Source: Sclerodactyla briareus (lineage: Eukaryota; Echinodermata; Holothuroidea; Dendrochirotida; Sclerodactylidae). Taken from it: a stretch of 64,000 nucleotides of DNA. The DNA lies in contig JAODTK010005689.1 in NCBI GenBank assembly GCA_026419785.1, positions 920,677 to 984,676 on the forward strand, written 5' to 3'. The notes below the pieces were generated by a model that was given only the letters and a program-made list of their open reading frames with translations, did not search any database and was not told where the DNA came from. The translations under genes were made by a program, and so were the position numbers. Of this stretch, positions 2,061 to 64,000 are shown in pieces; position 1 is the first letter of the stretch, and each line of letters begins with the position of its first letter.

Positions 2061-2379
2061 ACCCTTTGACATTCACGTCTTTCCAGTTAGTCCCATTGAG
2101 GTGAACACAGCCACACATACAAACAGATACATAGATTCTTCCTGCAGTCCTAGAGCTAACAGCACTTCGGCGAATCGGCGGTATCTTGAAAGTGAACTCG
2201 CCGTCTTGTAGGCCTTCGCCTCGAAGTCTGCCAATTGATGCCACCCACGTCAAAAGTCTCCCTTCTGTGAAAAAATCATCAATCAATGAAAAATGCCTCG
2301 ACATCACGCCCACCTTTCACCATGCTGAATCATAACGCCGGCCGGTGTCGTGGCGATTTCTACAGTAGGCTAGTCCTCA

Positions 2380-2830
2380 ATTTCTTGGCCTCATCCAAAG
2401 TGTATAAGGCTAGGCTAGGATTCCATATAGATGCGTAGGAGTATTGAAAAATCGCCAATTTACGTGAACCTAGCGGGGACCAGTGTTTGAATATGTTCTT
2501 TTAGTTTGCAGAAGATAGACTTGGTTCGACGAAGCCAAAAGTTTCATATGAAGGCCAACCACACGCGGAATAGGCGAAATAAAGCACCAATAATACCAAT
2601 GCGTATGCGGATCGTATCACCGCGAATAATTATATGGAATATCTAACCTCACGAGTCAAGCACCGACCGAATATGCAGGGGCCGGCTACCTATGGTCTTT
2701 TCGCATAGACTCACATGTGTTTTTCTCTTCTGAACAAGTTCGTTTCGTAAATTGTGATTCTCACATCCAGCCCGAACACGCATACTCATCTATTGAATCC
2801 CAGCCTTGGGCGGAGACCGCGTTTTTTGCG
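2380..2830 (+). repeat. dispersed repeat, partial copy of the 22.2-kb foldback family
   Basis: This stretch aligns by eye with 22,160-22,600 in the same orientation. Shared landmarks include TTTAGTTTGCAGAAGATAGAC against TTTAGTTCGCAAAGATAGAC, GAATAGGCGAAATAAAGCAC, and the CCAATGCG followed by GATCGTATCACCGCGAAT segment. The left arm is clear. The second arm, which makes 22.4 kb a foldback, is poorly preserved here. Confidence 0.55.
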
Positions 2831-4084
2831 CAGGGTTACTGCAATTGCGCATGGCGCACACCCCTCTGCTTTAAAGTATAGGCTTGCCTAGTTGTTGGAC
2901 AAGTATTTAGGAAACCACTGCAATCCGTGTTATCCACTGACCTGTAATTGTCAAAACATCGTTCGAACTCGAAGTGGCAGAAACAGTATATTGAGTGAAT
3001 AATACAACTTGAGATACAACTTTACGGAGTGAAGAAAAAGCTAGTTTAACATACCTTTCACTGGAGGGTGCCGTCGAGCTAAAACTCAAATGACATAAGA
3101 AGTTTATTGCACATTGCTTACACCTCTTTCCGTAGGTAAGTTAGAGGGCGTGGTCGGGTTCACAGCTGTAGTATCCAATTTGCAGCCAACTTGCGTAGGT
3201 GCTGTCGCTACCTCACCCCGTGGCTTGATCCACGATCTTGCGTATGCCTAAGTTATGACTCATCAAGATTCCCGAAAGGCCTGGTGTACACTGTCAAACA
3301 TGGTTGCCGCAACATTTTGCTGAACGCCCTTGGGACGCGAAAATTTTACAGTGTATACAACGGAAACGAGATGCAACCTGTTGCTATACTGTGGCGCAAC
3401 GTTTGCCATGATTTAAGACTCTACTTATTCGCACATGTGTCCGAGCGGTCAATTGTATTGGTGATACAAAAGGATCGTGTCCCAGGCATGTCCGGCAAGC
3501 ATGTGTCCCAGCAATGTGTTTTGGAAATTACACAGGTCCTAAGGAGGACATATGGCCAAGTTTGCTCTTTACACCAATGATGTTGAAAAAGCACAATCTC
3601 CAGGGCTTGCGGGCGCGGAGACGACGGACCAAACCCATAATATCCCCGAGGTGGGGAAATAATGAACACGGAACAAGGGGCAAGACGACCTTGCTGAGTG
3701 AAACCTATCGATACTACGCAGAGGAATTAAAGGGCCGCTGATAGGCTTTGTTTATGCCGCGTTAAAGACGAATAAGAACCTTCTAATGCCAAACGAATAC
3801 TAAACCTTTAAGTCTGGGACCTTCGCATAACGTATACAAATTGCGTGGGGCCTTCCATGTAACCCATTTCCTCCTACCCCTTTCTCCGAACTGATATTGG
3901 AAATTTGGCCTGCGACAAACGTGTGAATTCCCTCCCTATATATCCCGGGACACTGTGTTCCAGGGGGTATCATGGTTTGGCGCACCGTCTCTCCGTCTGT
4001 CGTCCTCCGCCGCGCGCGTTTCTTGTTAGCGCTCAGCTCTTCCAACGATTGTCCTATTACTCGAAACTTGGCACCCATGTTTGT
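2831..4084. other. unassigned, no gene supported
   Basis: Open frames of up to 129 codons occur at 3,191-3,580 on the plus strand, but they show no recognisable domain, overlap frames on both strands and lie in sequence of even base composition. I see no repeat or RNA gene here. Confidence 0.45.
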
Positions 4085-5155
4085 TATTAATAAGTCTTGG
4101 GAATCAAGTTCGAAAGTGGGCGTGCCACACCCCTTCAACGGCGGCTATCTTGGATTTTTCGACGAACTGACTTTCTTGCAGATATGCATGTTTTGAACAT
4201 GGTCGTCGTTTTGATGAAACCAACTTCAAGTTTCGTCCACCATTGGGACCCAAATGGGCGGCCATTTTGATTTTTTCGCAAAAATACGTTCTCCTATTGA
4301 CTTTTGAAATTTGGTGTACAGGTCCGCCATGAAGATTTATAAATTGCGGAAGTGGGCTTGGGCCACATCCCCCTCCATAGGCGGCCATCTGGATTTTTTG
4401 ACAAAGATTTTTTCGCAGATATGCACTTTTCGGAATATGGCGATCGTTTTGGGACCAACTTAAATTTTCGCCCATCCGACCCCACCGGGCGGCCATTTTG
4501 AATTTATTTTCGCAAAAATAACGCTTATGTGATTGATACTCGGTGGACAGTCCGCCATGAAGGACTCTCTGACGATTCCGAAAAGGGGGATGGCCACACC
4601 CTCCAAGGGCGGGCGGCCATCTTGGATTTTTCGACGAACTGACTTTTTTTGGCTCAGATACCTGCACGTTCCCGAACATAGCGATCGTTTTGGACTCCAA
4701 CTTTAAGTTTCGCCCCATTGGCCCCCACTTGGCGGCCATTTTGATTTTTTTCGAAAAATAAAACCTTGTATATCCGATTGACTTGAAATTTGGTGTGAAC
4801 AGGTCCCGTCAATGAAGCAATTTAGCCGATTGCGAAAGTTGCTGAGGCCACACCCCCAGCTCCCATGCGGCCATCTTGTATTTTTCGAAAACTTTTACTT
4901 TTTTGCAATATGGGCACTTTTCGGACAAGGCGATCATTTTGTGGGACCACTTTCCTTTTCGCCCCATGGACCTCACATGACAGCCTTTTGTTTTTTTTTC
5001 GCAAAAAAAAACAACGCGTTACATATCCGATCGCCCATTGAAAATCGGTGTACAGGTCCGCCATGAATAAATATTATAAGGTTGCCCGAAAGTAGCGTGG
5101 CCACACCCCTCCACCGGTGGCCATCTTGGATTTTTTTAATACCAACGCATTCCAA
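4085..5155 (+). repeat. ~240-bp satellite with GGCCATCTTGG/GGCCATTTTGA motifs
   Basis: About 4.5 tandem units are marked by GGCCATCTTGGATTTTT-like sequence at 4,139, 4,381, 4,613, 4,868 and 5,113 (spacing 232-255 bp). Each unit also carries GCGATCGTTTTGGGACC, GGCGGCCATTTTGATTTTT and GGTCCGCCATGAAG. Units differ mainly by small indels. The same satellite reads in the opposite orientation at 62,815-64,000. Long open frames across it are by-products of the repeat, not genes. Confidence 0.9.
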
Positions 5156-5202
5156 AGTCACCGAGGTCAAATAAATATAAAATTTAAATGTGCTTCTTGC
5201 AG

Positions 5203-5690
5203 AAAAGGTCCACGAAGGCCACAGTTGTGCGGGGATCTACCGTCGGCGGTTTGTTAGCCGCCTGCACAGTCTAGTTCCCGAAGACTTCGCCTTCTCGTCC
5301 CTTTCAAGAGAGTCTAATAAGGAGGCATGTTTTACATTTATGACTTGTCTGTTGCTATTAGTCAAGGTAATATAATGTACTATAATGCTTTTATGTTATT
5401 TTTCTCCTTGTTGCTTGTGGTACTGTAATCCTGTTGAAGCTTGACTTAATTTTTCAGTTTTTTTTTTTTACAACTTCTCAACAACGAAAGATTAGCCTGA
5501 AACGCCTATCTGCCTCTCGAGATCTAGTGTTTCTAATACCACAAAGAAGTTACAACCGGTCATTAACCCTCAAGAAGGCCACAGACATTTTTCTTGATTC
5601 CAGATTCAATTTCTCAAATGTTTAGTTTATTACCGAATGTACAATTGTTCCCATTTCAATCCTGGTCATTAAAGCTGAAATAAAATAATC
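5203..5690 (+). other. possible 3' end of an unidentified spliced gene
   Basis: A TTCTTGCAG acceptor-like site ends at 5,202. It is followed by 162 nt open in one frame, ending AAG before GTAATA (donor-like) at 5,366/5,367. A second open segment runs from about 5,491 to a stop at 5,625, after a T-rich tract. An AATAAA polyadenylation-type signal lies near 5,679. The predicted peptide is not recognised. Splice-like sites of this strength also arise by chance, and a transposon 3' end is an alternative. Confidence 0.2.
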
Positions 5691-11169: not shown

Positions 11170-11178
11170 CTAGAAAAT

Positions 11179-11204
11179 GTCGGGGCGGGTACAAACCGCC
11201 CGAC
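11179..11204 (-). other. 3' subterminal hairpin of copy A
   Basis: On the minus strand, GTCGGGCGG and CCGCCCCGAC form a 9-bp stem (one bulged base) around TTTGTAC. It ends about six bases before CTAG, where Helitron-type transposons keep their terminator hairpin. Confidence 0.75.
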
Positions 11205-11399
11205 GTTATAATCCCCGCATCTCTTATTCCAGAAATTTGGGAAACATGAAACTGGACAATATTCGTGGTAAGAAGACATTGATGACTTGTGAAGCGAAAC
11301 CCCCCGTGTACATGGTAAATGGGGTCATTCCATAATGCACTTGTTAATTGTCTGAGGCACCCCTACAGCCCCCGGACAAGGTGCGTCCTAAATAAGCAC

Positions 11400-13925
11400 A
11401 TGTATTCAAGAATCGGACTGTAACCACATGCCACCCGGACAGAGGTCAAAATTCAGGTCAGAGGTCACACCACATCAGGTCAACAATTATATCACAATGG
11501 GAACCATCCAGCCTTCGCAGTAATTCAATTCTTCGATTCTAGCCAAAAAACAGTTTTTGACCCCTAAGTGACCTCGAATGACCTAATGATATGGCAAGTT
11601 TTTATGAAATGTTACTCTCATGTGATACATCTCACGCACTAGGAGCATGTTGCATTTCTGATGAACACACCCAGTGTAATTGCCGAACAAAAAGTATAAC
11701 AATCAGTTTTTGACCCTCACGTGACCTTGAATGACCTCCAATGGACAAGGGGTTGTTTATGAAAATTGTTACAACCATGTGATGCATCCATCCTAGAAGC
11801 ATATTGCATTCCAATGAACATGTCCAATGTATGCGAAAAAGGTAGAAAATTGAACTTTGACCCTGGAACTACCAAAGTAAGGGTCCGATCGAAGCGGGAG
11901 TTGTTCTCCCATAACGCACAACAAAGCTCAATCACATATCCAAATAAACCCAAGTTTCTCTTTTTTTTTTTGCCCGTAAACTCCTTAAATAAGCACATTA
12001 CAGATCGACCTTCCACCCACATGGACCACCCGACAGAGACAATTCAGGTCGAGGTCACACACCTGAGGTCAAACAATTATATCACAATGGTGAACCAATC
12101 AGCCTTCGCAGATATTCAATTCTCGATTATAGCCAAAAAACCGTGTTTGAACCCTGAGTGACCCCAACTGACCTTTCTGATATGACAGTTTTAATTGAGT
12201 TTTTCTCCATGTATTACATCCACTCCTAGGAGCATTTTTGCATTTTGAATGAACCACACCAGTGCTAATGCCGAAAAAGTACTAAAATCAGTTTTTACCC
12301 CTAAGTTAACTTTAATTACCTTCAAGGCAATGGCGGTTTTATGTAAAATGTTACACTCCATGTGATGAATCCACTTCCTGAAGCATATTGATTCCAATGA
12401 ACAAGTCCAATGTTATTGCTGACAAGGTATAAAACTGAAACTTTGACCCCTTGTAACTACCAAAGAAGGTCCGATCGAAGCGGGAGTTGTTTCTCTCCAT
12501 AAAGCACACAAAGCTCAATCCATACCAAAAATAATAGTTCATTTTTTGGCCATAACTCCTTAAATAAGGACAATTATTCAAGCCATTAGACCTGTCACCC
12601 ACTTGACAACCCGACAGAGGTAAATTCAGGTCAGAGATGGACACCAGGCAGGTCAACAATTATATCACAGGGGTGAACCATCCAGCCTCGCAGATATTCA
12701 ATTCTCCGATATAGCAAAAAAAAACAGTTTTTGACCCCTAAGTGACCCCAAATGACCCTTTCATGATTATGACAGTTTTGTATGAAAATTGTTACTCTCC
12801 ATGTATACATCCACTCCTAGGGCATTTTGAATTTATGAAAACACCCAGTGCTATTGCCGAAAAGTATTAAAATCTGTTTTGACCCTAGGACCTTTATGAC
12901 CTTAAATGACATGGCGTTTTCTATAAAAATTGTTACAATCATTTGATGCATCCAATCCAGAAGAATATTGAATTCCAATGACATGTACAATGTTATTGCG
13001 AACAAGTTATAAAATTGAACTTTGACACCTTTTAACTACCAAAGTAAGTGTACGATCGCAGCGGGGGAGTTGTGAGTTGTTCCTCCATAAACACACAAAG
13101 CATATCAATATCCAAAAAATACACGTGGTTCTATTTTTTTTTGCCCATAACTCCAAACTAGGCAATTTTATTCAAGATTCGACCTTCACCCACATGACCA
13201 CCCGACAGAGTCATACGTCAGGTCAGAGGGTCACCCAAATGCAGGTCAACAATTATATTCACAAAAAAACAAAATGGTGAACCATCCAGACTTCGCAGAT
13301 ATTCAATTATCCGATTATAGCCAAAAAAACAGGTTTTGACCCCTAAGTGACCCCAAATGACATTTCATGATATGACAGTTTTTAATGAAATTGTTTACTT
13401 CATGTGATAATCCACTCCAGGACATTTTGCATTCTGATGAACACACCCAGTGCTATGCCGAAAAGTACTAAAATCAGTTTTTGACCCCTAAGTTGACCTC
13501 TAATGACCTTCAATGGACATGGCGGCTTTTATGAAACTTGTGACACTCCATGTGATTGCATCCACTCCTAGAAGCATATTGCATTCCATGAACATGTCCA
13601 ATGTTATTGCGAAAAAGGTATAACATTGAACTTTGACCCCTTGTAACTACCAAAGTAGTGTCACGATCGAAGCGGGAGTTGTTTCCTCAGAAAGAACACA
13701 AAGCTCTAGCACATATCCCAAAAACAACCAGTTTCTACTTTTTTTTTGCCCGTAACTCCTCTAAATAAGCACATTAATTCAAGATGACCTTCAACACTGA
13801 CCACCCGACAGATTTTGGTGACATTCAGGTCAGATGTCACAAAATGGAGGTCACAACAATTATATCCACAATGGTGAACCATCCAGCCTTCCAGATATTC
13901 AATTCTAGATTATAAGCCAACTATT
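11400..13925 (-). repeat. ~590-bp tandem array within copy A
   Basis: The marker GAACCATCCAG recurs at about 11,501, 12,091, 12,675, 13,279 and 13,876 (spacing 584-604 bp). Each unit contains two related ~150-bp halves, each starting near TTTGACCCCTAAGTGACC and running through TTATGAAAATTGTTAC and CACTCCTAGGAGCAT. Each unit also has one block of AGGTCA repeats just before AACAATTATATCACAATGG. Units differ mostly by one-base indels. Confidence 0.9.
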
Positions 13926-14448
13926 ATGCAATTAGTCATGCAAGATGACCTTTCCAGTGACCTAGGCCCACATTAGAAATTCATCGGCCACTGATAGTGG
14001 CCCTAGTCACCACGTTTCTGAAAATCCAATGAAGAAGTTTGAAATATCACAACATTCTGCGATAATAGGCTAATGGCCCAAAAAAATGCAAATTGACCCG
14101 GAGGACCTTGAAATTGTGACCATGTTTTTCGGCTCCAACAACTACCCACAACACAACGTTTGTGTAAATCGCACAAAAAAAAACTTGACAATTTTGCGAA
14201 AAACCTGAAAATAGAGGGCAACAAATTCACGATATAGCCCATTTTCGAAATTATGTCGAGATTTTACTCTTACGGACATGTGTACCAAGTTTTGGGTCAA
14301 CGGATATAAAGTGTTAAAGAATGAGAGCGCTAACGCCCAAAGTTTCCGGCGCAGCGGCGCGGCGGAGCGGCGGGGCGGAGAGACAAGGGCGGGCACACGG
14401 CCAAACCATAATGCCCCGACACTTACAGTGTTGCGGGGATATTATAAT

Positions 14449-15877
14449 TCCACCAAGGATAGTGGAAATGAACCGAGTGAAGAACATCATCATACCGTCA
14501 GAGACGAGCGCGGGGACACTGGTTGTGTCAAGGGAGGGAGAGGCGAGAACTGTGAATGTCCGCTTCAGGTTCTAGTAGTAACTACATCTCACACTAGGGT
14601 CAGTAGCCTATGTCTCAAGCGAGGTTACGGATGTTGTGGCAACGGGACGACGTAGGGTCAGCTTTATGGGAAGAGAACGAGCCAATGGTCACGTGCCCTT
14701 TAGGATTTTCAATGTTAGTAGATGTAGGCGCCGCACCATTTAATTAGGCCCAATATTACTATTAGTGTCCCCTGCTATTTCCACGCTTGCCTATATATAA
14801 ACTATAAAACTTCAGCGAAGTTGAACAAACAACTATTAGATGGGATATCACTGATTCGTCGTCGAAGGTTACATGTAGCCCCAAATATTACGTCTGTTTT
14901 TCTCTCCAAACCTCCATGGTCCCCGTCGCACCCTGGAATTCCTTGTCCTCTGTCTTATTTTGTTTGGTACTCTACATGCACCAACCTCACCGAGTGGTTG
15001 TATATCAACTGACAGTCATTCATTCATGAATGCTTGACAACAATGCAGCTCCCATGCAAGGCTGATCAAATATCTGTGGATGGCTTGGGGCTGAGGTGGT
15101 TATTGGTATCGACTTGACCAAGCAAATGCCATGTGGTTTTCTGCTGCGGAGAGCCGCTTCTACAAGTCATCATGTCCTCTCCGTTCCGTTCGTTCGTTCG
15201 TTCGTGTCGTTCGTTCGTTCGTCTGTTCTGTTTTCACGTTCATTCATACTTCTAAACCGTACATGCGATCAGGTTGAAACTTGCTAGGTGGATGAAACTT
15301 GCTACTGGCAGGCTGAGTTACTTTATGTTTTGCATAGTGTGGATAATTACCCTAATTTCCAACTTCCATTGGGCTCTCAGCTTTGAACGTGTGAGAGCGG
15401 TTTGTTTACACAATTATCCATCCCTCTGCAGAGCAAGTGTTTATCTTATCTGTCAGAAGGTGAACCATCAGGTTCCCCATCACCAGGTTGTGCGGCCTAT
15501 TTACATACACCATTGTCCAGTGGGAACTGATTGTCCTATCACACTCACGCTCTCAATTGTTGGCTGGTGACCCAGAAAGCGAGTTGTTTTCACATGTTTA
15601 GTTCTGTTGTATATGTACTAATTACCGGCCTATGATGATTCAGTTGGGTTTTTGATGCTGGGCACTGATAGCATTATTAGGCCAATAGGTAGACATTTCC
15701 AAGCCTTCCAAGGTTATTACAGATACAGTAAGTCAACTACATGGAGCAAACAATAAATGTGACATTGGTACAGAACATGCGTGTATTCGCCACAGGAATT
15801 TTGCCGTCCGCAGCTATCAAGATGCGCTCGACTTGCGCTTGTTATAGTATAAGATCTCAGTCTATTCCAGCAGTTCT
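14449..15877. other. unassigned, with TTCG microsatellite
   Basis: A (TTCG)n-type tract lies at about 15,180-15,245. No gene domain is recognised. Some open frames exceed 90 codons (15,274-15,570) without supporting features. Confidence 0.45.
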
Positions 15878-15937
15878 ACTATATATATATAATATATATA
15901 TTATATATATATATAATATATCTATATATATAGATAT

Positions 15938-15974
<37 letters not shown>

Positions 15975-16025
15975 TATATATAGATTAAAATAATATATAA
16001 TAATTATATATATATATATAATACA
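15878..16025. repeat. (TA)n microsatellite
   Basis: About 150 bp of almost pure TA with occasional interruptions. It is likely to form cruciform or slipped structures and is prone to assembly error. Confidence 0.95.
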
Positions 16026-16049
16026 TAGTAGCCTGTATTAGAAGGTGCA

Positions 16050-16347
16050 AACCCGTTAGTGAAATCACTCGCGCCTTACATGTAACTTAGAATATTTTGC
16101 AACTATTATCAAGTACATCAGAGTGCTTAGCAGGTTATATCGCACGACTAATTCTCAAAATTTTGAAATTGCATGAAATGTGGTCCATATAGAATCGGTA
16201 TCGTGAGTTTGCTAATTTGGAGAGCATACAGCGGTCATCATGAGGATATTTTGCACAAGCCACGCGACATTTACAACATTAGTAGATTCACATGGAAGTT
16301 GGTAAGCCCACATATAGCCTATATATAGTCAGCTAGTAACATGGTGC

Positions 16348-16384
<37 letters not shown>

Positions 16385-16960
16385 TTGAAGGTCATTCCAG
16401 GAACACAAGAGGTAAACTTTCTACACATTCTTCAAAGTATTTGCCAGCAGCTATGAAGGCGTTTTGTCGAGGAAATATCGCAGTCTGCTCCAATGGTGCC
16501 TTGTATAGGAGACACCACACTACATATAGACGTATACCGGACACGTTGTGTTTTGTGAGTGTCATGGACGATGGCCTCATTGGAAGTTGGCCCCCAGCTG
16601 CCCAGCATGGAGCAGTAGGCTGATATTTCATAGGTCCATTCACTTTGATGCGACCGAATATAGATTAGTAATTTGCCTCCAGTCCCGAATGTTTTAAACT
16701 AGAATCAAAGCCACTTCAGTCATTGATCAGTTGATATGTGATCTAGTCCTAAAATATCTGATATTTGTAGAAGATGATAAATGTTGTGATAATTACAGAG
16801 ATATAGCGTTTCAAGAATTTTATAAATATCCCTGCGAATATTAGCTGCGGGGCAATGGGTGCTTACCGGCCACGCGGGCTTTCTGAAGGTACGGTTCAGG
16901 GGTATGTGAACTCTTGTACTCTTGTAATCGTCTGTTCATTGGCTTGTTCAAATCAGGGTC
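16050..16960 (+). mobile_element. second copy of the LINE 3' region at 1-1,135
   Basis: It aligns in inverse orientation with 1-1,135. Shared stretches include CATGGAAGTTGGTAAGCC, GCCTATATAGTCAGCTAGTA-like sequence, TTGCCAGCAGCTATGAA, GATCAGTTGATATG and ACGCGGGCTTTCTGAAGGTA. This copy has lost about 180 bp that hold the reverse-transcriptase tail in the first copy. It contains a run of 34 A at 16,349-16,382 at that point. Non-coding. Confidence 0.75.
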
Positions 16961-17284
16961 CGCCACCCGTAGGAGGCTCGACATTTGAGCATGAACGCCA
17001 CGACGAAAATCCGCCTCAGTGCAATTCGATAACGATTTGGTACGATACATCGTCACTATGATATTTCATACTAACGTTTCCGATGTGGCGGTATTGTTCG
17101 CTGTAATCTCATATGAACGCAACTGTCTTTTCGCCAGGTCGGTTGCGACACGATATGCTTGCTTAATGTATAAAAAAACAAAAACAAAAGCGAGATGAAT
17201 TAGGACTCTAATTTTGAGATTTAGGGTTATGAAATAGGCTCTTTTCGTCTTTGTTGGTTTCAAAGTAAATCTGATGTCATTCGG

Positions 17285-17460
17285 GCATGTATCTAACCAA
17301 GTGGTTGGCACAGTTGGTAGAGCGTCGGCCTTCCTCCCGGGAGACCGGGGGTCGATTCCCGGTCGGTCATACCAAAGAGGGAATTTTAATTTTAATTGTA
17401 CCCGTTGCCCTTAATCTCGCTGGACGCTCAGCACAAGGAGCCGGGACAAACTAGGGGTTT
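17285..17460 (+). mobile_element. tRNA-derived SINE head
   Basis: The segment GTTGGTAGAGCGTCGGCC (about 17,313-17,330) matches a pol III A box in tRNA context. GGGGGTCGATTCCCGG (about 17,347-17,362) matches a B box with T-arm pairing, followed by a CCA-like ACCA end at 17,370-17,373. The acceptor stem does not pair well, so this is a tRNA-derived SINE rather than a functional tRNA. An AT-rich stretch and a phrase CTCGCTGGACGCTCAGCA follow as probable SINE body. The 3' limit is uncertain. Confidence 0.6.
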
Positions 17461-17698
17461 GCAAGTTTTTGCCGTCTGCGTGTGATTACCCCCACATTAA
17501 GGTACCGCCAAAGAGGCATTCCCTTATTCCGTGTATCTGGTGAGTATTCGCAGCTGACAGTAGGTGCAGTAAACTGCATCCATTTCTGCATCCTTGCTGG
17601 GCCTTGAATAGGTTCGATTCTCTGCTCGGCACGTGTACCATGAAAATATCACCCCCCCCCCCCTTTTCACGGCTGTTGTGAGACGATAATGCCTCTTT
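17461..17698. other. possible continuation of SINE body
   Basis: Another B-box-like GGTTCGATTCTC sits near 17,611. A C-run lies at about 17,653-17,663. No gene is seen. Confidence 0.3.
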
Positions 17699-17700
17699 TA

Positions 17701-18127
17701 AGGGCCTGTCACACTATCACGATTTTCTATCGTTCTGCTACACGATCTTTTTAGATTTCAGCTGAACCACAAGGGAGATGGGTCGGTGGGTAACATTGTC
17801 ATGATACGAGTACATAATCACAATACCTTTTCAAGATCGAAAGTGTTTCGAAAAAAACCTCATCCTAAATGACGTCATACGAAAAATGGGTTTAAGCGTC
17901 CGTACGATAAAATCGTGGAGTCACGATAAAAAGAAAATATGGGATTATCAAAAAAGGACGGGAAGGGCTTTCCACATTGGGAATGTTTGGCAAATAGCGA
18001 AATAGTCCTCCTTCACTGTGGCGGTGTGTTCCAGCCGTCAGATTAACTTAGGCCCGGTATTAATCGGCATGAACCAATAATATCGGACGTTGCAGCGACA
18101 CGATTATCGTTATAGTGTGACCGGCCC
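17701..18127. mobile_element. 427-bp MITE with ~24-bp TIRs and TTA flanks
   Basis: The left end AGGGCCTGTCACACTATCAC and the inverse of the right end, AGGGCCGGTCACACTATAAC, match at 18 of 20 bases, and both continue GAT. TTA lies directly outside each end (17,698-17,700 and 18,128-18,130). A 3-bp TWA duplication and this size suggest a non-autonomous PIF/Harbinger-type element. A hAT origin (8-bp duplication) is less well supported because longer flanks do not match. No coding potential. One TGACGTCA site is internal, at about 17,868. Confidence 0.75.
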
Positions 18128-18130
18128 TTA

Positions 18131-19007
18131 CTACTTTAATTACAAATATATAGACAGAAGAGTAATAGGCAACCTTAATTTCTATGAATAAATATATACA
18201 CGGCATATTGAAAAAGACTACTCAAAGTCTAACATGGAACATGTAATATGTGCAATATTGAGTGGACCAGCGGGCCACTTTCATAAGAGAAAAAACAACA
18301 AGAAAAACTGATATTTCTATTGTAATTAAGATGGTTACGCTGCATCAAAACTTACCGTGTTTCATGGAGACAGCAATGCATAACAACATTAACTTTAGCT
18401 CATCTCCAGCTATTAAGCATGCAGTTACGTAAGCTACGCAAAATGACAAATATGTGCATGGTTATTTCGAAAACTGGCGTCAATAACCTGGTTCAATATG
18501 AATGTTGACAGGGTGTGTCGCAAAACAGTGTGTGTGTGTGTGGGGGGGGGGCGCTGTCCAAAACCTGTGTCAAACATTGACGATGATTACAAGGAAGCAT
18601 CTAAAAAAAAAGTCGGGAAGGCTTCAACCATAGCCACTTCAGACCCCACCGTACCAACCCGACTATTTTATGTTAAAGTTAGGGGAATATACTAGACTGT
18701 TCGATTCGAAATACCACACCTGGTTCCCTACTCCACTGATGCCACGGGATTCGATGATTCAAAAGCTATCCTATGACATATGTTGCATCATGGAGGGTCG
18801 GGGAGAGGAGGTATTTTTACTAACGGTTAGGTCAATGACATAAAAGTTATGAAAGCGTTCTGCAAATATCGAAGTAGGCCTATGTTCAGGTACGCGTGGC
18901 CCCCAAACTGCCTTTTGTGAGCTCCCCCCGCTCTCTCCCCTCTCTCTTCCCCACCAATCGCGTCGCAAAGTCAATAATAGTAAGGTTTACAGTAGGCTAC
19001 AGCCTTA
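18131..19007. other. unassigned
   Basis: A GT tract followed by a G-run lies at about 18,527-18,551. No recognisable coding region or element end was found. Confidence 0.4.
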
Positions 19008-19074
19008 ATTATATCCCCGCAACACTGTAAGTGTTCGGTGGATATTATGGTTTAGGCCGTGTGCCCGCTGTCTC

Positions 19075-19128
19075 CGCCGCCGCCGGCTCCGCCGCCGGGC
19101 CGGCTCCGCCGCCGCCGCCGCCGCCGCG
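19075..19128. repeat. CCG/CGG trinucleotide-rich tract
   Basis: About 50 bp of interrupted CCGCCG lies near the 5' end of copy B. The matching place in copy A (14,350-14,385, reverse strand) is also GCGGCGG-rich but shorter. The alanine/arginine-rich open frame it creates is not a gene. Confidence 0.85.
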
Positions 19129-19389
19129 GAAACTTTAGGCTGTTTAGCGCTCTCATTCTTTAACACTTTATCCGATTTTGAACCAAAACTTGGGTGACAC
19201 ATGTATGTATGGTAAAATCTCGGATAAGTTCGAAAATGGGCTATATCGTGAATTTGTTGCCCTCTATTTGCCGGGTTTTTCGCCAAATTTTCAAGTTTGG
19301 CGCGATTTACACGAAAAGTGGTGTTGTGAGAAGTTGTTGGAGCCGAAAAATCATGGCGACAATTCAAGGTCATCTGTGGGTCAAGTGTG

Positions 19390-19860
19390 CATTTCTTTGG
19401 CCAGTAGACTAATTATGCATAATGTATGTGATATTTTAAAACTTCATGTTTCTGAAACTTGGTGGATCGGGCCACTATCAGTGCGTGTATTTTCCTAATG
19501 TGGTCCGGGTCACTGGAGGTCTCTTGCATGACTAATTTGCATAATAGTTGGCCCATTAGCCTTAGGCAATTTATAACTTTGTTGGATTCTCAAACACGAA
19601 ACTTGGTGAGTGGGACTTCTAACAGTCCGCGATAAATTTATTCAAATGCTCGAAATAACTGAAGGTCATTATGTGGTGTTTAATTTACATATTCGTTAGC
19701 ATAATTAGAATAATTAATGCAATGAGTTTCTCAACTCTTAGGGATTTTGACGAAACCTTGTGATCAGAAACTACTACCAGTCCTGATAATTTAGTCAATA
19801 GCACTCAAAGATCACTGAGGGTAAATTTGGTGGGCTAATTGCATAGTATTGTCCTGATCA
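19390..19860 (+). repeat. ~147-bp repeats in the 5' module of copy B
   Basis: Phrases of the type GAAACTTGGTGGATCGGG recur at about 19,455, 19,599 and 19,752. AATTTGCATAATAGTTGG-like phrases appear in between. Three diverged units of about 147 bp are implied. Copy A keeps roughly one. Confidence 0.55.
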
Positions 19861-20935
19861 GTCAAAATGATGAGTTGCATACTTTTTTCGCAATAACATT
19901 GGACATTTTCATTGGAACTGCAATATGCTTCTAGGAGTGGATGCATCCCTGGAGTGTAACAATTTTCATAAAACTCGCCATGTCATTGAGGTCTTAAAGG
20001 TCACTTCGGGGTCAAAAACGGATTTACGTACTTTTTCGGCAATAGCACTGGGTGTGTTCATCAGATGCAAACTGCTCCTAGGATGGATTTCTCCCATAGA
20101 GAGTCACAATTCTCATAAAATCTGTCCTATCATTAAAGGTCATTCAGGTAACTTAGGGGTCAAAACCTGTTTTTTTTTTGCTATAATCGGAAATTTGAAT
20201 ATCTGCGAAGGCTGGATGGTTCACCATTGTGATTACTTGTTGACCTGCATGTGTGTGACCTCTGACCTGAATTGAACCTCTGTCGGGTGTGCATGTGGTT
20301 AAAGGTCGAATCTTGAATAAAGGTGCTATTCAGGAGTTACGGGCAAAAAACATAGAACCTGGTTATTTTTGGATATGTGATAGAGAGCTTTGTGTGCTTG
20401 CTGGAGGGACACAACTCCCGCTTCGATGCGACCCTACTTTTGGTAGTTACAGGGTCAAAGTTCAATTTTATACCTTTTCCGCATAACATTGGACGTGTTC
20501 ATTGGAATGCAATATGCTTCTAGAGTGGATGCATCACATGGGGTAACAATTTTCATAAACCCCGCCATGTCATTGAAGGTCATTAACAGGTCACTTAGGG
20601 TCCAAAACCTGATTTTAGTACTTTTTCGGCAATAGCACTGGGTGTGTTCATCAGAATGCAAAATGCTCCTGGGAGTGAATGTACCCATGGATAGTAACAA
20701 TTCTCATAAAAACTGTCATCTCATTAAGGTCATTCGAGGTTCACACTTCGGGGTCAAAAACTGTTTTTTGGCTATAATCTGCAAATTGAATATCTCGAAG
20801 CTGGATGTTCACCCTTGTGCTATAATTGTTTGACCTGCATGTGTGTGACCTCTGACCTGATTTGATCTCTGTCGGGTGGCCTGTGGTTAAAGGACGAATC
20901 TTGATAAATGTGCTTATTAGACTCACCTTGTCCGT
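19860..20935 (+). repeat. ~590-bp tandem array within copy B
   Basis: About 1.8 units are marked by CTGGATGGTTCACC near 20,212 and 20,800, and by the TGACCTGCATGTGTGTGACC block at 20,241 and about 20,831. It is the reverse complement of the array in copy A. Confidence 0.85.
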
Positions 20936-21093
20936 GCTGAGGGGTGCCCATACAATTAACAAGTGGCATTATGGAAGACCCTTTACTGTAACACGTTGTC
21001 GCTTCACATCTATAAATGTTTTCTTTCCACGAATATATGGTCCGGTTTCATGTTCACCAAATTCTTTGAATAATAATATGCGGGATATATACG

Positions 21094-21116
21094 GTCTGGT
21101 GGTTTCTACCCGCCGA
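21094..21116 (+). other. 3' subterminal hairpin of copy B
   Basis: GTCTGGTGG and CCCGCCGAC pair imperfectly around TTTCTA. It matches the copy A hairpin in place and in most stem bases, with substitutions on one side of the stem. Confidence 0.6.
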
Positions 21117-21126
21117 CATTTCTTAG

Positions 21127-21737
21127 TTGTGTAACATTTACAGCACCGGCTGCCAACTCCAAATTTGGCATGGAAGCACGTGCCAGCTCCTACAAACTCG
21201 ACCGGTCCTTGTGGTACTACTCCAAGAAATGCTAGTCGGTCAATGGCCAATTGTAGACCGAATCCCGGTGATGGACACATAAACTCTATGAAATTTGATT
21301 CCGTCGCGCCAGAATTCCTTGTTGATGTGAGGTTGGCGGCCGAGTTTTTATTGGCTCACCGTGGGGTGCTACAAGTCACTAAATGGCTTCCAAATCACAA
21401 CTGTGCTTTTCTCTCGGTACCTGTATATTCGGTCAGTCGTATGAATTTCTCTTGTCTGAGTCTGATGGTGTGGTAATGGGTGTCTGTTTGTCATTTGCAT
21501 TCAGCTGTGGCAATTCAGACATTCTGATGTTGGAGTGTAGCCACGAGAAGGGGTAACCCCTTGTTAGAACCCCCACCGCCTGCTTCAGTGCAAAACGCAG
21601 TTACTTTTATTCCCCCATGTTCCCTTACAGATGGAGAGAGATTGTCCTTAACATATAACGAATAAATATTGACCTTTCCTACCTCGTAGCGTAGATACAG
21701 TACGGTTCCTATGACTCGAACATGATGCGCATTGAAC
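21127..21737. other. unassigned
   Basis: A 103-codon frame (21,165-21,476 plus) has no recognised domain. No repeat is identified. Confidence 0.35.
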
Positions 21738-22224: not shown

Positions 22225-22580
22225 GTGACTGAAGGGGCCGGGGGCTGTTGATTTGACTATGTTTCTATTTAGTTCGCAAAGATAGACATTGGTTCCACAA
22301 GAAGCCCAAATTCATAAATGAAAGCAAACCGACGCTGAATAGACGAAATAAGCACAATGTACCAATGCGGTCTGCGATGCGTATCAGCGCGAATGATTCT
22401 ATGGAATAGAAGTCATTCTCGGTGATACGCATCCGTATTGGTAGCATGTGCCATATTTTTGCCTATTCGGTGTTGGTTTGCTCTCCATTTGGAATTGTTC
22501 TGCCTCTGTGGACCAATTTTCCTCTTTTCAAACAAATAGGACATTCAGACCCATCCCCATCTCCGCTCAATGAATTCGCG
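22225..22580. repeat. ~355-bp foldback repeat (long inverted arms)
   Basis: The arms are centred near 22,405. ACCAATGCGG...GATGCGTATCAGCGCGAATGAT (22,356-22,398) opposes ATCATTCT-like...GGTGATACGCATCCGTATTGGT (22,410-22,443). Pairing continues outward: AAAGCAAACCGACGCTGAAT with ATTCGGTGTTGGTTTGCTCT, and ATTGGTTCCACAAGA with TCTGTGGACCAATTTT. Single mismatches and indels are common. A MITE or foldback element is the likely source. Confidence 0.8.
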
Positions 22581-24000: not shown

Positions 24001-24597
24001 ACGTACATTGACATTTATAGATAAGACAGTTGAGACGGCAAAAATTTAAAAACGCACATAAAACATTGAAAATCAAAAAACCTGGGTAAGACGATAAATG
24101 ATTTTTGTTTGCACAAAAGAAAAGTACCTGGGGAAATTGATTGTGCAAGGTACTGAAGCAATGGCGGTGAGTATGGGAAGAGAACCGGTCAAGCCGCCGT
24201 GCGTTGGATCGGATTACCCTGTCACTTGGCTGGTAATTGAACGCGTGATCCTCGTCCTTCCCCAGAGACATCATTGGTTTCCGGACTCGAGACTGATAGA
24301 CGGTGGCACTGTGGGCAAACGCGGAGACCACCGGGTGATAACGCCGTTTAGGGTTCAGGAAGGGCTTTCTAAAAGGAATCGTCTTCACACAAGACTATTG
24401 TTTCCAGGATCGTGTCCCGAGAAAGCAGGTAACGATATTTAAATAGGGATGGAAAGAGAGGGGTTGATACCAGTGATCATCGAGGCCTGATGATTGTGAC
24501 AAGTAATGACGGCAAGGCGCCGCACATGGTGCCTGATATGTGTCCAAAGGGGGGCACAGAAATTTGATTGGGGGGGTACTATCTAATACTATCTAAG

Positions 24598-24715
24598 CGG
24601 GGCGCCAACATAGGTTGGCGCGGAGCGCAAAGAAAACATTTGGTTGCGCAAGCCCCCCCAGATGGCCGGAAATGACATCTCCCGAGCGTTTGGCTGCATG
24701 TAACAAGCCCCTGAA
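24598..24715 (-). repeat. GGCGC-palindrome dispersed repeat, copy 1
   Basis: GGCGCCAACATAGGTTGGCG, then GGAGCGCAAAG...CAGATGGCCGGAAATGACAT. It aligns with 48,000-48,110 in the same orientation and, inverted, with 29,720-29,850, 42,160-42,290 and 61,770-61,830. Confidence 0.6.
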
Positions 24716-27265
24716 TCTGAACATTTGTGATCACAAATTCTGTAATCAATTGAAAATTTTAACATTTAGTCAGACCTCGGTCTATTTATGCCCGCCTTTT
24801 TGGCCAGAATGTTCAATGATTTGTGTTCCACACTACTGTTCACCAGTGTGCGCGAAGGCGCCCATTCTGTCTGGGCTTTCCCTGGCACATCTGAAAAAAA
24901 CAAAACAGGAATCTCACCAGAAAATTTGGGACTTTCGCATCTTAGCTCTACTGGTCCAACCATGATATGACGTCAGAGAAGTTAACTGGAGAAAACATGC
25001 GATTAAAATTGAAGCAGTCATGGTAGCTTAGCTACGCAGTTCCGAATCGCGCGTGTCGCGGGAGGAGGGGAAGGGAAAGGACGGAGGCTAACGGGTTTAG
25101 TATCGAAGAAGAGGTTGACTGTAGTGTTCAAGGTCACTGAGAATGTTGTTGTATAATTTCAGTATTTCACCTCACAGATATGTAAGAGTTAGGGGGATTG
25201 AGAGGGTAGCATGCTTAAATAGAGCTTGCGCGGAGATGACGGGAAAGTGACGGGACAAACACTCACACTAGTACACGGCGCGAAGCGCGAAAATTTTCAC
25301 TTTTTATCGCACTCGAGGCGAATTTGGCACAAGTACGGCCTTCTTTGATATTTTTTGTGAATACTTTTTTCCGAAAATCACAAATCTAATGGGAGGGGGG
25401 GGGGGCTACAAGGGGGCACAAGGTTCTCGAGGGGGCGCACGTTCCCCCTGCCCCCCCTTTGACGACGCCACTGATATGATGATGTCAGAGTGTGTGGTCC
25501 AAACCATCTAGACCTAAGCCTATTGTAATTTTCCCCGCCGAAACGAATCACTAGAATCGCTTTTCCAGTTGCCTATCCGATCATACAGTTCTTGATCGAA
25601 ATCATTTTTAAATTTTTCATGCGTTGATGTTTGGAGATTGGTAGACTGAAATTTGTTCAGGATGCCGCATGAACTCAAGGGAAGGTGGGACTATTGAGTA
25701 GCCAGTGATGTTGCACTCCATAAGGAAAAATGACGTTCTAGTACACACCTGGCGCGAATAATAGGGACGAGGACACGCTCACGTAATGGTCACAACGCAA
25801 AAACAACCTTCACGTACATCCGGACTTATTTTTCGCATGGAAGTACTTGTTACGATGATATCGTGCCGATTGTCTAACCTCGAATGGAAACCGATATTCC
25901 ATAGGAAAGTCCGCCTGGAACGTCATGCCCCTTTGAAATTGTGTAGGTCGTAAATTGTAACTTCAGAAAGGTCTACGACAAGCTAACGGGGGGGTCAAGT
26001 ACTTTCGGTACCTCGCGTCTAAAGTCAAATCGAGGCGCTCTATAAGAACACTAATTCTAGGCAATAGAATACTGTCGCTCGAACGATAGGGAGTAAAATG
26101 GGCCGAACTAATGATAACGTCAAAATTCTATGACAGCGCATTACCAACGGGTGCTCGAAGCGCTTTATGATATCGATCATAGAAACGAGTCAGGCACAAT
26201 CCGGAGGTATATCGCGGCGCTATATCCGCGCCAGTGGTGTTCGATACCTACGGTAGCCATTTTCCACCTGGGTGGAGAGAAGCAAGCGGGATTAAGTAAC
26301 TTGGGTTACAAGCTCGATGCCGGGACCAATTGGGCCACATGCTCCCACTGAGAAAGAATGAGCAATCGAGTTACGTTACACGCTGAGTTCTGATAGTCCA
26401 AACTGTGCAGCGATTGACACAACGCCCGGCACCCCACCTCTGCCCGTGAACCAGGAATCGCAGTTACCGAAATAATAAACGATCCTGTATGTAGCTCCTA
26501 GAACACGCAACTTCTGTGATGAGCTATGGCCAAACTCATAATAACAACGAAATATCAGAGGATTAGTATCCCCAGTTTAGTTTCGATTTCAACATTATGG
26601 ATTGTACAGAGATTGGAAAATGGGCAGCAATATTAGTGGGCAGTCATTTGACAATACGAGCTAGGTTTCTATCCTAAAATGTAAAATAACAGTGGTTCGA
26701 GCAAATAAATTGCAGCAAGATGTAGATGGCATTACGGAGACCGGTCTGGTCGAGTAATGAAACTTATTTTACGACCAGTTCGGTAGTTCGCTTAAACTCC
26801 CGCCATCGCCTGTCATCGCGGAGGCGGGGAAGGACATCCTCAAACCCCGAATTCCTAATTCCGAAAGGCTATATAGTGGTATTTTCCCAACGGACACTTA
26901 AATGGCGGGTGTAATACGCGCAAGCCCAACAGAGAGCCAGCGGTCATCTGCAATTTAGCGAAATATAGAACAGTTCTAATAGGCAACTCCATATCAGATC
27001 ATGTTACATCTGTCCTATTTTGTAAACATTACGGCAAAAACCTTGAACAATGTCCCACGATGTATAAGTCTATGTCTGAGTAATTATCATTCTCAGTTCG
27101 AGGATCCACCGAGTAGGTCTAGTACCGGCATAATGCATAGACCGCAGATTGGCTCATATCAGACTGATCTAAAGAAAATCGAAACGTAATATAAATATGT
27201 GGGGGAATGTAGACAAAGAGGCAGGCAGTCGGAAATCTGGAAGTATGTGAAAAGATCATTGGGCG
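24716..27265. other. unassigned; one G/C-tract element end
   Basis: At 25,385-25,473 a G-rich then C-rich stretch ends GACGACGCCACTG, resembling the CAGTGGCGTA termini seen elsewhere in the window. From about 25,700 to 27,190 the sequence has even base composition, abundant CpG and no repeat or domain that I can see. Confidence 0.45.
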
Positions 27266-29359: not shown

Positions 29360-29900
29360 ACAATATATCTGCGAGTGGGTGAACTTAGTACAACATTCTC
29401 ATTGACCTTGAAAAACTACAATCAACCTCATTTGAGTACTAAACCCTTTAGCCTCAGACTGCTTGGGATTTTAACGTAGGTTTCCTCCACGTAACTGCTA
29501 CTCGGAAGTTCCTGTTTTTTGGGGTGAGATCCTGTTTCCCAGATGTGGGCCAGGAAAAGCACGCGCCCTGATGAACAGTAGTATGGAGCGCCAATTGTTG
29601 AACATTTTGGCTTGAAAAAGTTAAAGTCTAGGCAGCGAAAAGACCGAAGTCTGACAAAATTTTCAAATTTTCTACGGAATTAACCCAAATTGTGATTTCA
29701 CAAAATGCCCAGGTTGAAAGCTGGTACAGCAGCCCTAAAGCCGGGAAGGTCAGTTCGCCCTATGGAAAGGCATGCGCAACCAAAATTTCGTGTACGATCG
29801 GCGCCAACCTGTGATGGCGCCTCCGCTAGATCAGTAGTCTGGTGCCCCCACGAGCCGGACGAATGTCTGTTGCCCCTCTTGGTGCACCCGTATGGAAAAG
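29360..29900 (+). repeat. dispersed repeat, shared with 41,640-42,340
   Basis: Shared stretches in order: ATCTGCGAGTGGGTGAA/ATCTGCGAGGTGGAAAT, CATTCTNATTGACCTTGAAAA with CTACAATC, TACTAAACCCTTTA, GACTGCTTGGG, and a 3' part containing GCGCAACCAAAATTTCGTGT and CGGCGCCAACCTGTGATGG. The 3' part is the GGCGC-palindrome module found alone at other sites. Probably one composite non-coding element. Confidence 0.65.
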
Positions 29901-34869: not shown

Positions 34870-35800
34870 TAATATATAGCTTTTAAGGCGGCGTCCGTAG
34901 CCTGGTTAAAAGGTAACTGTGGTGTTCCCCAAGGATCGGTTCTTGGGCCTTCACTTTTGGGCGGTTTATTACGATCTCGAAGATTCGGTGATTCCAGAGT
35001 TGAAAAGGTTGCGGCGATACCAAGTTGTATCGGGAGGTTGCTTGGACGAAGATGTTGCAATTTTGTTGGCTAGGATTTGGGAAGGGATCTTGATATAATC
35101 TCCAATGGTCGTTCGTGGGCAACTGTTTTTCAATACCGATGAGTGCAGCGTGATGCAATGTTGGTTTCAACAATCGCAAACGTTCTTTCGAATTGATGAG
35201 CAAAATATTCATAGGTGAATCAGAAAAGGATCTCGGTGGTGCATTTTGATCTTTTTGAAACCTCATTAACATTGTGCTGAAGCTGCGAGGAAAGGTTATT
35301 GGGTTACGGCTGATTAGACGTCACTCAGTTCCCTTGAGAAAGAATATTGTTGCAGGCGTTTATTGCATCTAGGAAACCGTCACCTGGAGTACTATAGCCA
35401 AGTATGGAATCCATATTTTGCGAAGACAAGCAGGTTAATTAAAAAACGCTCAGGCCACCTAGATTAATTAATCTGTCTTAGAGATTACGAGGAAAAAGAA
35501 TCAAGGCGTCTCGGTTAATTCGATGAGCTGAGACGAATCGAGGTGATTTGATCCAGGTTTTTAACATTGTTCATGGATTCGAGGGCCATTTCCTTCCAGG
35601 CTTCCACCATTTCTTCACCAACAATAGTGGTCATTGCCTCAAGATTCGTGGTAAACGCTGTAGATTGCACATTCGGAAATATTTCTTCTCGCAGAGAGTA
35701 TTTATCAGGGAAATAGCTCACTGAATAAGTTGTTCCGTCTAAGAGTGTGAATGCGTTGAAGAAAAGAATTGCTGGCGAATTTTTCAGGCATCTGGTTTTT
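34870..35800 (+). pseudogene. CR1/L2-like LINE reverse transcriptase, 3' half, inactivated
   Basis: The plus strand encodes NCGVPQGSVLGPSLL at about 34,915-34,960 (RT fingers/palm motif), then DTKLYRE (about 35,017) where the catalytic box should read F-A-D-D but reads C-G-D. FNTDECSVM (about 35,130), EKDLGV (about 35,226), and RGDLIQVFNIVHGF then RCRLHIRKYFFS (about 35,540-35,690) follow, as in CR1/L2 thumb and tail regions. At least six stops or frameshifts are present. The 5' part is missing upstream of 34,870. The element would have encoded an endonuclease/RT that copies its own RNA. This copy cannot. Confidence 0.8.
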
Positions 35801-36285
35801 CTTCTCTTCTTGGATGTTGTGGCTTCAGATCTCTCTTGAGGATTTGTCTCTCCTGACTCATTTTCACGAAAGAGGTAAACTAATAATCCTAATTTTTTTG
35901 GTGTAGACTGGGGAGGGAGGGGGGTCTAGAAAATTATCCAAATGTGAAAAATTGATAATTGGTCAATAACTATAGACCATACACGGGATGGATCAAGCTC
36001 CATCATGAGTACGTCGAACCTTAAAAGTCTGAAAACCGTGTGAATACGACAAGCCAGGATCAGTCAAGAAATCACTAGGCCGTTTGGCAGTTTGGCTTTC
36101 AGGCTAATATAGATAAGTCTCTATCATGTCAACGGTGAATTTGGCGATCAGGCGGTGCCAATGACTCTTGGTGTTAGTCGGCAGGTAAAGTAGATTGTTT
36201 GGATCAACCTGGAAATTTTGAGTATAGTTTTTTTTTTGGACGATCATAAGTTTAAAGGGTGCTCTTTCAGATCAGGGGTGGACCT
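35801..36285. other. LINE 3' flank, otherwise unassigned
   Basis: It follows the RT remnant and may hold its 3' UTR. A G-rich run lies near 35,910-35,925. Confidence 0.35.
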
Positions 36286-56335: not shown

Positions 56336-56339
56336 AAAA

Positions 56340-62340: not shown

Positions 62341-62814
62341 CAAACCCATACTAATTCCTAGTAGCTATTATTTCCCCGTTAACACTGACTCAACTTACCA
62401 TGATTATCCATTTGAAGAAGACACGATATGTGATTGTTTGCAAAATAGCCGGAACTAGCCACCCGAATGGCTTTTGAAATAAATTAAAGCTCCATTCAGT
62501 CTTTGAAATAATCGAGAAATGAGGGCATCAATTATATTGAAAATGAATGCTATTGTTCTAACCCTCCTCGACAAGAGTACTTCTTTCGAACTAGACATGT
62601 TTAGGCTGGTAAAACCGCCCCACGTGTAGATCCCTGCTTTTAGCAATCTTGGGAAGAAGTATCTAACACCCCCATGAAAGAACCCCCATTTTTTGTCGAA
62701 ACCAAGATAAACTTCTCCACCAAGTTTGTTTGTAATCCATGAAGTTAATAGGCCAAGAATTCTGCAAATTTGCACGATGATGTGAAATGACTTCTAACCT
62801 TGTGAGGAACAAAT
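62341..62814. other. unassigned
   Basis: No domain or repeat is clear. It may hold the 5' region of the LINE. Confidence 0.35.
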
Positions 62815-64000
62815 GTACCCCCCATCCACCAAGTTTCGTTCAATCGACAAAGTTCGAAAATCGCATAAGTTTCAAGTCCATCGGATAAAGCGCTAGTTTT
62901 GGTCGAGAGAAAAAAATCAAAATGTGCCGCCGTGTGTGGTTTCAAGGGGCGAAAACTAAAGGTTTCCCAAACGATCGCCATGTTCCGAACGCGCAAATCT
63001 GCAACAGTCAGTTCGTAAAAAAAAAAATCCCCAGATGCCGCCGTTGGGGGGTGTGGCCACGCCACTTTCGAAATCGGTCAAAGATTTCTTCACTGCGGAC
63101 CTGTACACCAATTTCAAGTCCATCGAATAGAGCTTATTTTTTTCGAGAAAATCCGCAATGGCCGCCATGTTGGGTCAAATGGGGCGAAAACTAAAGTGTG
63201 TCCCAAAACGATCGCCATGTTCCGAAACCACAAATCTATCTGCGAAAAAGTCTTTCGGTCGAAAAATCCAAGATGGCCCCGCCGTTTGGGGATTGGCCAC
63301 GCCCACTTTCGAAATCGCAGAGGATTTCTTCCTGTTCCGAAACGGCACATCGGCGAAAACGTCAGTTCGTCGAAAAATCCAAGATGGCCGCCCGTTTGGA
63401 CTGGATTGCCACGACCCCACTTTTCGCAAATCGTCAGAGATTCTTCATGTTCCGAAACGCGCAATCGCGAAAGATCATTTCGTCGAAAAATCCAAATGGC
63501 CGCCGTTGGAGGATTGGCCCCGCCCCTTGTACTCGAAATCGTCGAGAGTTCTTCATGGCGGCCTGTCCACCAAGTTTCAAGATTCAATCGATAAAGCGTT
63601 ATATTTGCGAAAAAAATCAAATGGCCGCCATGTGGGTCCAATGGTGCGGAAATTAAGTGGGGTCCCGCAAAAACGATCGCCATGTTTCGAAACGTGCATC
63701 TGCAAAAAAGAAGTTCGTCGAAAAATCCAGATGGCCGCCGTTGGACGGGTGTGGCCATTCCCAAACTTTCGAAAATCGTCCAAGATTTCTCATGGCGGAC
63801 CTGTCTTCCACCAGTTTTCAAGTCCAATCGGAGAAAGCGTTATTTTTGCGAAGAATTCAAAATGACCGCAGTGGGTTGGTCCAATTGGGTGAAAATAAAG
63901 TTGGGGTCCCGAAATTATCGCCATGTTCAGAAACGCGCAACACCGCGAAAAAGTCAGTTCGTCGAAAAATCCAAGATGGCCGCCGTTGGAGGGTATGGCC
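62815..64000 (-). repeat. ~240-bp GGCCAT satellite, inverted copy
   Basis: AAAATCCAAGATGGCCGCC-type markers occur at about 63,265, 63,376, 63,489, 63,725 and 63,970. Spacing alternates between about 112 bp (two shortened units) and about 240 bp. Other shared phrases: AACGATCGCCATGTTCCGAA, GGCGGACCTGTCCACCAAG-like, and GCGTTATTTTTGCGAA. It is the reverse complement of 4,085-5,155 and runs off the window end. Overlapping 235- and 237-codon frames on both strands are repeat by-products. Confidence 0.9.

Follow-up and report, generated by a model that had tools for sequence, protein, structure and literature searches.

What kind of element is built around a long tandem array in a holothurian genome, and where does such an array come from? 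Both questions are raised by a 64,000-nucleotide stretch of Sclerodactyla briareus (contig JAODTK010005689.1 of assembly GCA_026419785.1, positions 920,677 to 984,676 of the forward strand), which was analysed as a whole and is hereafter called the window. It contains two oppositely oriented copies, A and B, of an element with a core of ~590-bp units, which had been predicted from the letters alone to be non-autonomous Helentron relatives of the HINE type with an unusually long core unit, which might seed satellite arrays. We conclude that A and B are very probably two copies of a non-autonomous rolling-circle transposon of the Helitron2/Helentron type (HINE). Related ends are also found on a second pair, D and E, and on a lone 5′ end, F. 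Coordinates are collected in Table 1.

Two copies with common ends and unrelated flanks

A blastn search of A and its flanks against the window showed that A and B are homologous from end to end. One match joins the heads (query 76-605 to 19,008-19,552, 79.6%, E = 3.5e-118) and another joins the core and tail (query 2085-3353 to 19,873-21,128, 80.0%, E = 0), and both terminate at the proposed element ends. Among seven 300-bp flanks (both sides of A, B and D and the 3′ side of E), compared on the same strand with E up to 1, no match longer than 11 bp was found. With matches that stop at the termini and flanks that are unrelated, the statement of the original prediction that A and B share their 5′ end, core, 3′ hairpin and CTAG/CTTAG terminus is confirmed. 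The opposite orientation of the two carries no information, as there are only two copies.

The order of parts is alike in A and B, namely a 5′ hairpin lying in an asymmetric terminal inverted repeat, a GC-rich microsatellite, the ~590-bp tandem core, a 3′ hairpin, CTAG or CTTAG, and TT. A scan for the 23-nt 5′ motif TATCCCCGCAACACTGTAAGTGT, allowing up to 3 mismatches, returned exactly two sites in the window (14,441-14,419 on the minus strand and 19,012-19,034 on the plus strand), both without a mismatch, and no occurrence in 100 shuffles. The 5′ inverted repeat of A also pairs into a hairpin with downstream bases, and hairpins as stable as those at the 5′ ends of A and B were given by one and none, respectively, of 500 dinucleotide shuffles, the null used for all hairpins. 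At the 3′ terminus, CTAG is found in A, D and E and CTTAG in B, and TT follows in 4/4. The 3′ hairpin lies 9 bases from the end in A and B and 12 in D, within the 8-35 bp expected of HINE elements, and the 3′ inverted repeat begins 47-50 bases from the end in all four. A 3′-end pattern drawn up post hoc matches these four places in the window; in 60 shuffles the mean number of matches was 0.47 and the highest 2.

A second pair: related ends, another core

D, E and F were overlooked in the original prediction. D and E were first reached via repeats found elsewhere in the window and were then assessed with profiles whose only input was A and B; those trained on all four ends are circular and were not used as evidence. 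On D, the A/B profiles recover the 5′ end (E = 0.0015), the left flank (E = 4.7e-6) and the 3′ end (E = 0.31), correctly ordered and all on one strand, while the next unrelated profile matches in the window have E values of 0.34 (5′) and 1.3 (3′). F lies about 270 bp upstream of D in the opposite orientation, and no 3′ end matching it was found within the window.

Ungapped identity over the last 60 bp is 48/57 between A and B and 45/54 between D and E, versus 42/56, 43/57, 42/54 and 43/56 for the four cross pairs. Helentron subfamilies are defined at 80% identity (PMC4067079), which both A-B and D-E exceed and all four cross pairs fall below, although with gap columns counted no pair reaches 80%. 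A comparison of the 590-bp unit with the D/E monomer gave no significant match in 8 windows (z -1.8 to 1.0). D and E form a sub-family of their own, whose ends are related to those of A and B and whose core, at this sensitivity, is not.

A further stretch, at 15,182-15,300 (+), consists of a CGTT microsatellite detected by Tandem Repeats Finder (TRF) followed by GTTGAAACTTGCTAGGTGG, which by eye resembles the left flanks of A, B and D. It is possibly a remnant of another such element.

Table 1. Positions of the elements and their parts in the window; shuffle counts are dinucleotide shuffles as stable as the hairpin.
Feature	Position	Strand	Basis and remarks
Element A, whole copy	11170..14447	-	5′ end at 14,447; homology to B stops at termini; terminal motifs
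A 5′ inverted repeat TTATAATATCCCCGCA	14,447-14,432	-	Overlaps A 5′ hairpin
A 5′ hairpin	14408..14445	-	Fold -9.5; 1/500 shuffles
A left-flank GC-rich microsatellite	14347..14380	-	TRF
A central array, four ~590-bp units and part	11388..13920	-	blastn, unit analysis
A 3′ inverted repeat TGCGGGGATTATAA	11206..11219	-	Sequence; exact ATAATCCCCGCA at 11,208-11,219
A 3′ hairpin	11179..11204	-	Regex scan; followed by ATTTTCTAG, then TT
Element B, whole copy	19008..21126	+	blastn homology to A
B 5′ hairpin	19011..19045	+	Fold -10.3; 0/500 shuffles
B left-flank GC-rich microsatellite	19072..19127	+	TRF
B spacer missing from A	19552..19872	+	blastn; inside region of decayed ~125-155-bp periodicity
B central array	19873..20918	+	
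B 3′ inverted repeat TGCGGGATATATA	21079..21091	+	Sequence
B 3′ hairpin	21094..21117	+	Regex scan; followed by ATTTCTTAG, then TT
Element D, related ends and left flank, other core	3937..5274	+	A/B-only profiles
D central array, ~235-bp units	4104..5139	+	Five profile hits
Element E, 3′ part	62591..64000	-	Runs past window end; 3′ end by A/B profile (E = 0.064); core common with D
E central array, ~235-bp repeat of D	62867..64000	-	Six profile hits, two half-length
F, lone 5′ end of related element	3590..3663	-	A/B 5′ profile

Coding capacity and database searches

No Pfam family was found in 10 open reading frames (ORFs), 150 ORFs of at least 82 amino acids and 144 ORFs of 66-81 amino acids of the window, a set that leaves out low-complexity ORFs and those shorter than 66 amino acids. 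The ORFs searched thus agree with the lack of coding capacity of HINE elements, and no autonomous Rep/helicase partner was detected among them. No Rfam family was found in the window. Exact-pattern scans of viral and genome contigs gave 0 matches and a blastn search of 19,128-20,900 against phages gave none; the collections scanned were viral and prokaryotic and that searched by blastn was of phages, so these absences say little.

Comparison with known elements

The layout of A and B is that published for non-autonomous Helitron2/Helentron elements (HINE, DINE-1 and Cg_HINE). Cg_HINE of the Pacific oyster is described with the same order of parts, a left flank of sub-terminal inverted repeat (subTIR), complementary inverted repeat and microsatellite being followed by a variable spacer, an array and a right flank of subTIR and palindrome, and with a T-rich insertion site; its group 2 has related flanks with unrelated repeats, as do A/B and D/E (PMC7492417). 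The likeness is one of description, and the sizes differ: the monomers surveyed there were limited to 100-500 bp and centred on 140-180 bp, as against 590 and ~235 bp here, and the spacer is 10-500 bp, shorter than the ~745 bp of B. DINE-1/HINE elements of Drosophila, mite and mosquito are reported with subTIRs, an inverted repeat nested in the 5′ subTIR and a 3′ stem-loop, a layout that A and B resemble, and with TT-rich insertion, some also having central tandem repeats as found here, and autonomous Helentron partners are known there (PMC4067079). Their 3′ inverted repeat is placed 38-60 bp from the end, a range that includes the position of this repeat at all four 3′ ends of the window. In the passages of that paper at issue, CTAG is given for a proto-Helentron and CTRR for canonical Helitrons, and not as a HINE feature. 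Helitron2 is described with the same hairpins at both ends and with asymmetric terminal inverted repeats, the 5′ repeat being part of the 5′ hairpin and the 3′ repeat lying just upstream of the 3′ hairpin, as appears to be the case here (PMC3627910, PMC5148889). However, the 3′ repeat of Helitron2 is given as about 20-30 bp from the end, whereas here its inner edge is at about 35 and its outer edge at 47-50 bases.

Weighing the classification

The structural features examined fit the HINE family of the original prediction, but several single tests are weak, and the following points weigh against the assignment. The match between 5′ and 3′ inverted repeats is equalled by 30/1000 shuffled pairs in A (marginal) and by 223/1000 in B (not significant). 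The 3′ hairpin is clearly beyond shuffles in A alone (6/500); that of B is not significant taken alone (75/500), those of D (69/500) and E (42/500) are not clearly above shuffles either, and the 5′ hairpins of D (126/500) and F (121/500) are not significant. Single-end profile matches are weak, as at the 3′ end of D and at the 5′ end of F (E = 0.099), and it is therefore order and strand that carry the case for D. The 5′ terminal base can be placed only to within 1-2 positions (A: GGAA-T-TATAAT; B: TTAA-T-TATAT), and depending on this boundary the target of A and B reads T/T or A/T. Moreover, TTCCC is found at 3,928-3,932 and 5,275-5,279 around D, which would be a 5-bp target duplication if the 5′ end of D sits 4 bases further out. 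Given that several single-feature tests are weak, what supports a HINE family is the recurrence of the same layout in homologous, unlinked places.

Some of these features would also be expected of a non-autonomous family of canonical Helitrons (Helitron1). The CTAG of A, D and E fits CTRR, the 3′ hairpin lies 9 bases from the end in A and 9-12 bases inside overall, close to the about 11 bp of Helitron1, and the junctions of A and B can be read as A/T, in keeping with the insertion of Helitron1 between A and T. Helitron1 is nonetheless improbable, as the 5′ ends start with TTATA or TATAT and not with TC, and the 5′ hairpin and asymmetric inverted repeat present here are described as absent from Helitron1 (PMC3627910). 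A cut-and-paste family of miniature inverted-repeat transposable elements (MITEs), whose members have short inverted repeats at their termini and satellite repeats inside, is less probable again. It would account for the short inverted repeats near both ends and for the possible TTCCC duplication at D, and Pearl-type bivalve elements were originally filed as MITEs (PMC5139131); but the repeats are asymmetric, the 3′ one starts 47-50 bases from the end behind a hairpin, and no target duplication beyond TT was found in A or B with 0-6 bases taken off at the left boundary and 0-3 at the right. Finally, tandem repeats make up most of each copy and the copies are inverted, as they might be if A and B were not transposons at all and instead two inverted fragments of one satellite or segmental duplication. 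We consider this barely credible, since A and B have a non-repetitive head and tail in common, their homology ends at the same motifs between unrelated flanks, and at D, E and F the end motifs are found again, accompanied by another core or by no core at all.

If A and B are HINE elements, a RepHel protein supplied by an autonomous element elsewhere would nick the 5′ end and displace one strand, and displacement would stop at the 3′ hairpin and CTAG end. The 3′ inverted repeat may pair with the 5′ one in competition with the 5′ hairpin, as proposed for Helitron2 (PMC3627910), and so help to set the end point. Insertion would take place next to T residues without a clear target duplication, and the number of units in the array could change through slippage, recombination or aberrant rolling-circle replication.

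The 590-bp core and the spacer

The array of A consists of four full units (595, 606, 582 and 590 bp) and an incomplete one of about 155 bp, and that of B of about 300 bp, one full 591-bp unit and about 150 bp. The predicted core of about four and two units therefore holds for A, which has a part in addition, and is slightly too high for B, at about 1.8 units. The orientation of the array relative to the flanks is the same in A and B, and likewise in D and E, and the arrays of A and B finish at the same point of the unit. A register inherited from one ancestral array was considered and rejected, with no A-B unit pair standing out and tree supports of 31-49% of 200 bootstraps.

In the consensus unit, two ~147-bp repeats lie side by side, and no repetition was detected in the remaining ~297 bp. 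Its third and fourth quarters match with a score of 204 (z 24.8; maximum of 100 shuffles 62), while the other five quarter pairs have z values of -0.7 to 1.1 at zero offset, and a four-part higher-order repeat (4 x 147.5) was accordingly discarded. The core unit had been called unusually long, which is not supported. Among the oyster satellites in the first part of Table 1 of PMC8268682, those marked DNA/Helitron have monomers of 433, 437, 437, 622, 811, 1144, 2077 and 2091 bp, so that monomers both shorter and longer than 590 bp are on record for Helitron-linked satellites. Long monomers of this kind, such as the 622-bp CgiSat06, are documented there genome-wide and in standalone arrays (PMC8268682, PMC11136912).

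Compared with A, B carries an extra ~320 bp between head and core, and the spacer separating microsatellite and array measures ~430 bp (A) and ~745 bp (B). The corresponding junction in A sits on TTGGC, which is present in both the spacer and the unit, and the missing ~320 bp may have been lost by a microhomology deletion. In the head and spacer of B, 7/11 windows starting at 19,208-19,708 resemble the sequence 125-155 bp downstream (z 4.5-8.2) and 4 do not; the same check on the head of A gave z values of only 0.6-3.4 in six windows. The B head was also tried as the ancestor of the 590-bp unit, and no significant match was found in 9 windows (z -1.7 to 1.7).

Origin of the ~235-bp core

For both A and B, a piece of the left flank aligns with the D/E monomer for ~75 bp, and the two alignments fall on the same positions of the monomer. 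They score 61 (A) and 58 (B), and neither score is reached in 1000 shuffles (maxima 47 and 54), the pieces having been trimmed after an earlier comparison with longer ones. The longer pieces gave equal scores with closer nulls (A: z 4.6, maximum 59 of 300; B: z 3.5, maximum 65 of 300). Moreover, when a profile was made from the left flanks of A, B and D, five more matches at E ≤ 1 were found in the window (0.0021, 0.011, 0.13, 0.17 and 0.51), all of them in the D/E arrays and on the right strand. These similarities suggest that part of the D/E monomer is probably related to the element flank, and the D/E core may have grown partly from element sequence. Against such an origin, the flank of D immediately before its array (4,024-4,103) has no significant monomer match, with 219/1000 shuffles scoring as high, and it is not supported as a decayed first monomer. 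The B head was rejected as ancestor of the D/E monomer, with no significant match in 10 windows from 19,230 on (z -1.6 to 2.1).

Divergence and sequence quality

One scoring scheme was used for all divergence figures. Full units inside A differ by 6.8-10.9 substitutions per 100, A units differ from the full unit of B by 7.8-11.1, and the half unit opening the B array differs from A units by 8.4-13.5. Between A and B, the corresponding figures are 7.6 for the heads (9.0 if the microsatellite is excluded) and 10.3 for the tails. As divergence within A is about that between A and B, and tree supports are low, either the arrays were homogeneous at copying or the differences are largely sequencing error. 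Indel events number 7.0-10.2 per 100 in ten full-unit pairs, near the substitution rate, and are mostly single-base in A units, while transitions make up 20-31% of substitutions in the 590-bp units. The high indel rate, seen in the A/B and D/E repeats alike, and the few transitions in the 590-bp units suggest poorly polished long-read sequence. However, error as the sole cause is opposed by a transition share of 33-43% for the head and tail and of 34-46% among the D/E monomers, by 19 indel events in the full unit of B versus 31-34 in A units, and by deletions that are not concentrated in homopolymers (39/70, with 52% of bases in runs). Since sequencing error may contribute, ages cannot be read from this sequence.

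Other features of the window

A tRNA-like stretch lies at about 17,301-17,370 (+), although ARAGORN reported no tRNA there or elsewhere in the window. It has apparent A-box and B-box promoter motifs and is perhaps the head of a short interspersed nuclear element (SINE). A self-inverted repeat of ~275 bp (70.6%) at 22,265-22,539 is possibly a foldback or MITE element. Two dispersed repeat families, with about 69-74% identity within the window, are found at 24,587-24,962, 29,562-29,836, 41,912-42,272 and 47,998-48,114, and at 35,150-35,811 and 56,336-57,038.

Significance

On the HINE classification, A and B are ordinary non-coding rolling-circle transposons carrying a tandem-repeat block. With D and E they add a family in which related ends enclose unrelated satellite-like cores, in agreement with the oyster and fly literature. 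How transposon arrays may turn into satellites, aberrant rolling-circle replication being one of the ways, has already been reviewed (PMC12628747), and the authors of the Cg_HINE study leave open whether the repeats are captured or intrinsic (PMC7492417). It is quite possible, if a little short of probable, that the central repeats were born from the element itself, with ~75 bp of the D/E monomer corresponding to the left flank of A and B, which lack such an array and have the 590-bp core behind the same flank. If so, the window would show one end module bearing two independently made satellite cores, and for one of these there would be direct evidence on the question of capture or intrinsic origin. 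The partial resemblance of the D/E monomer to the left flank offers a specific example on which ideas about the origin of transposon-borne tandem repeats can be tested.

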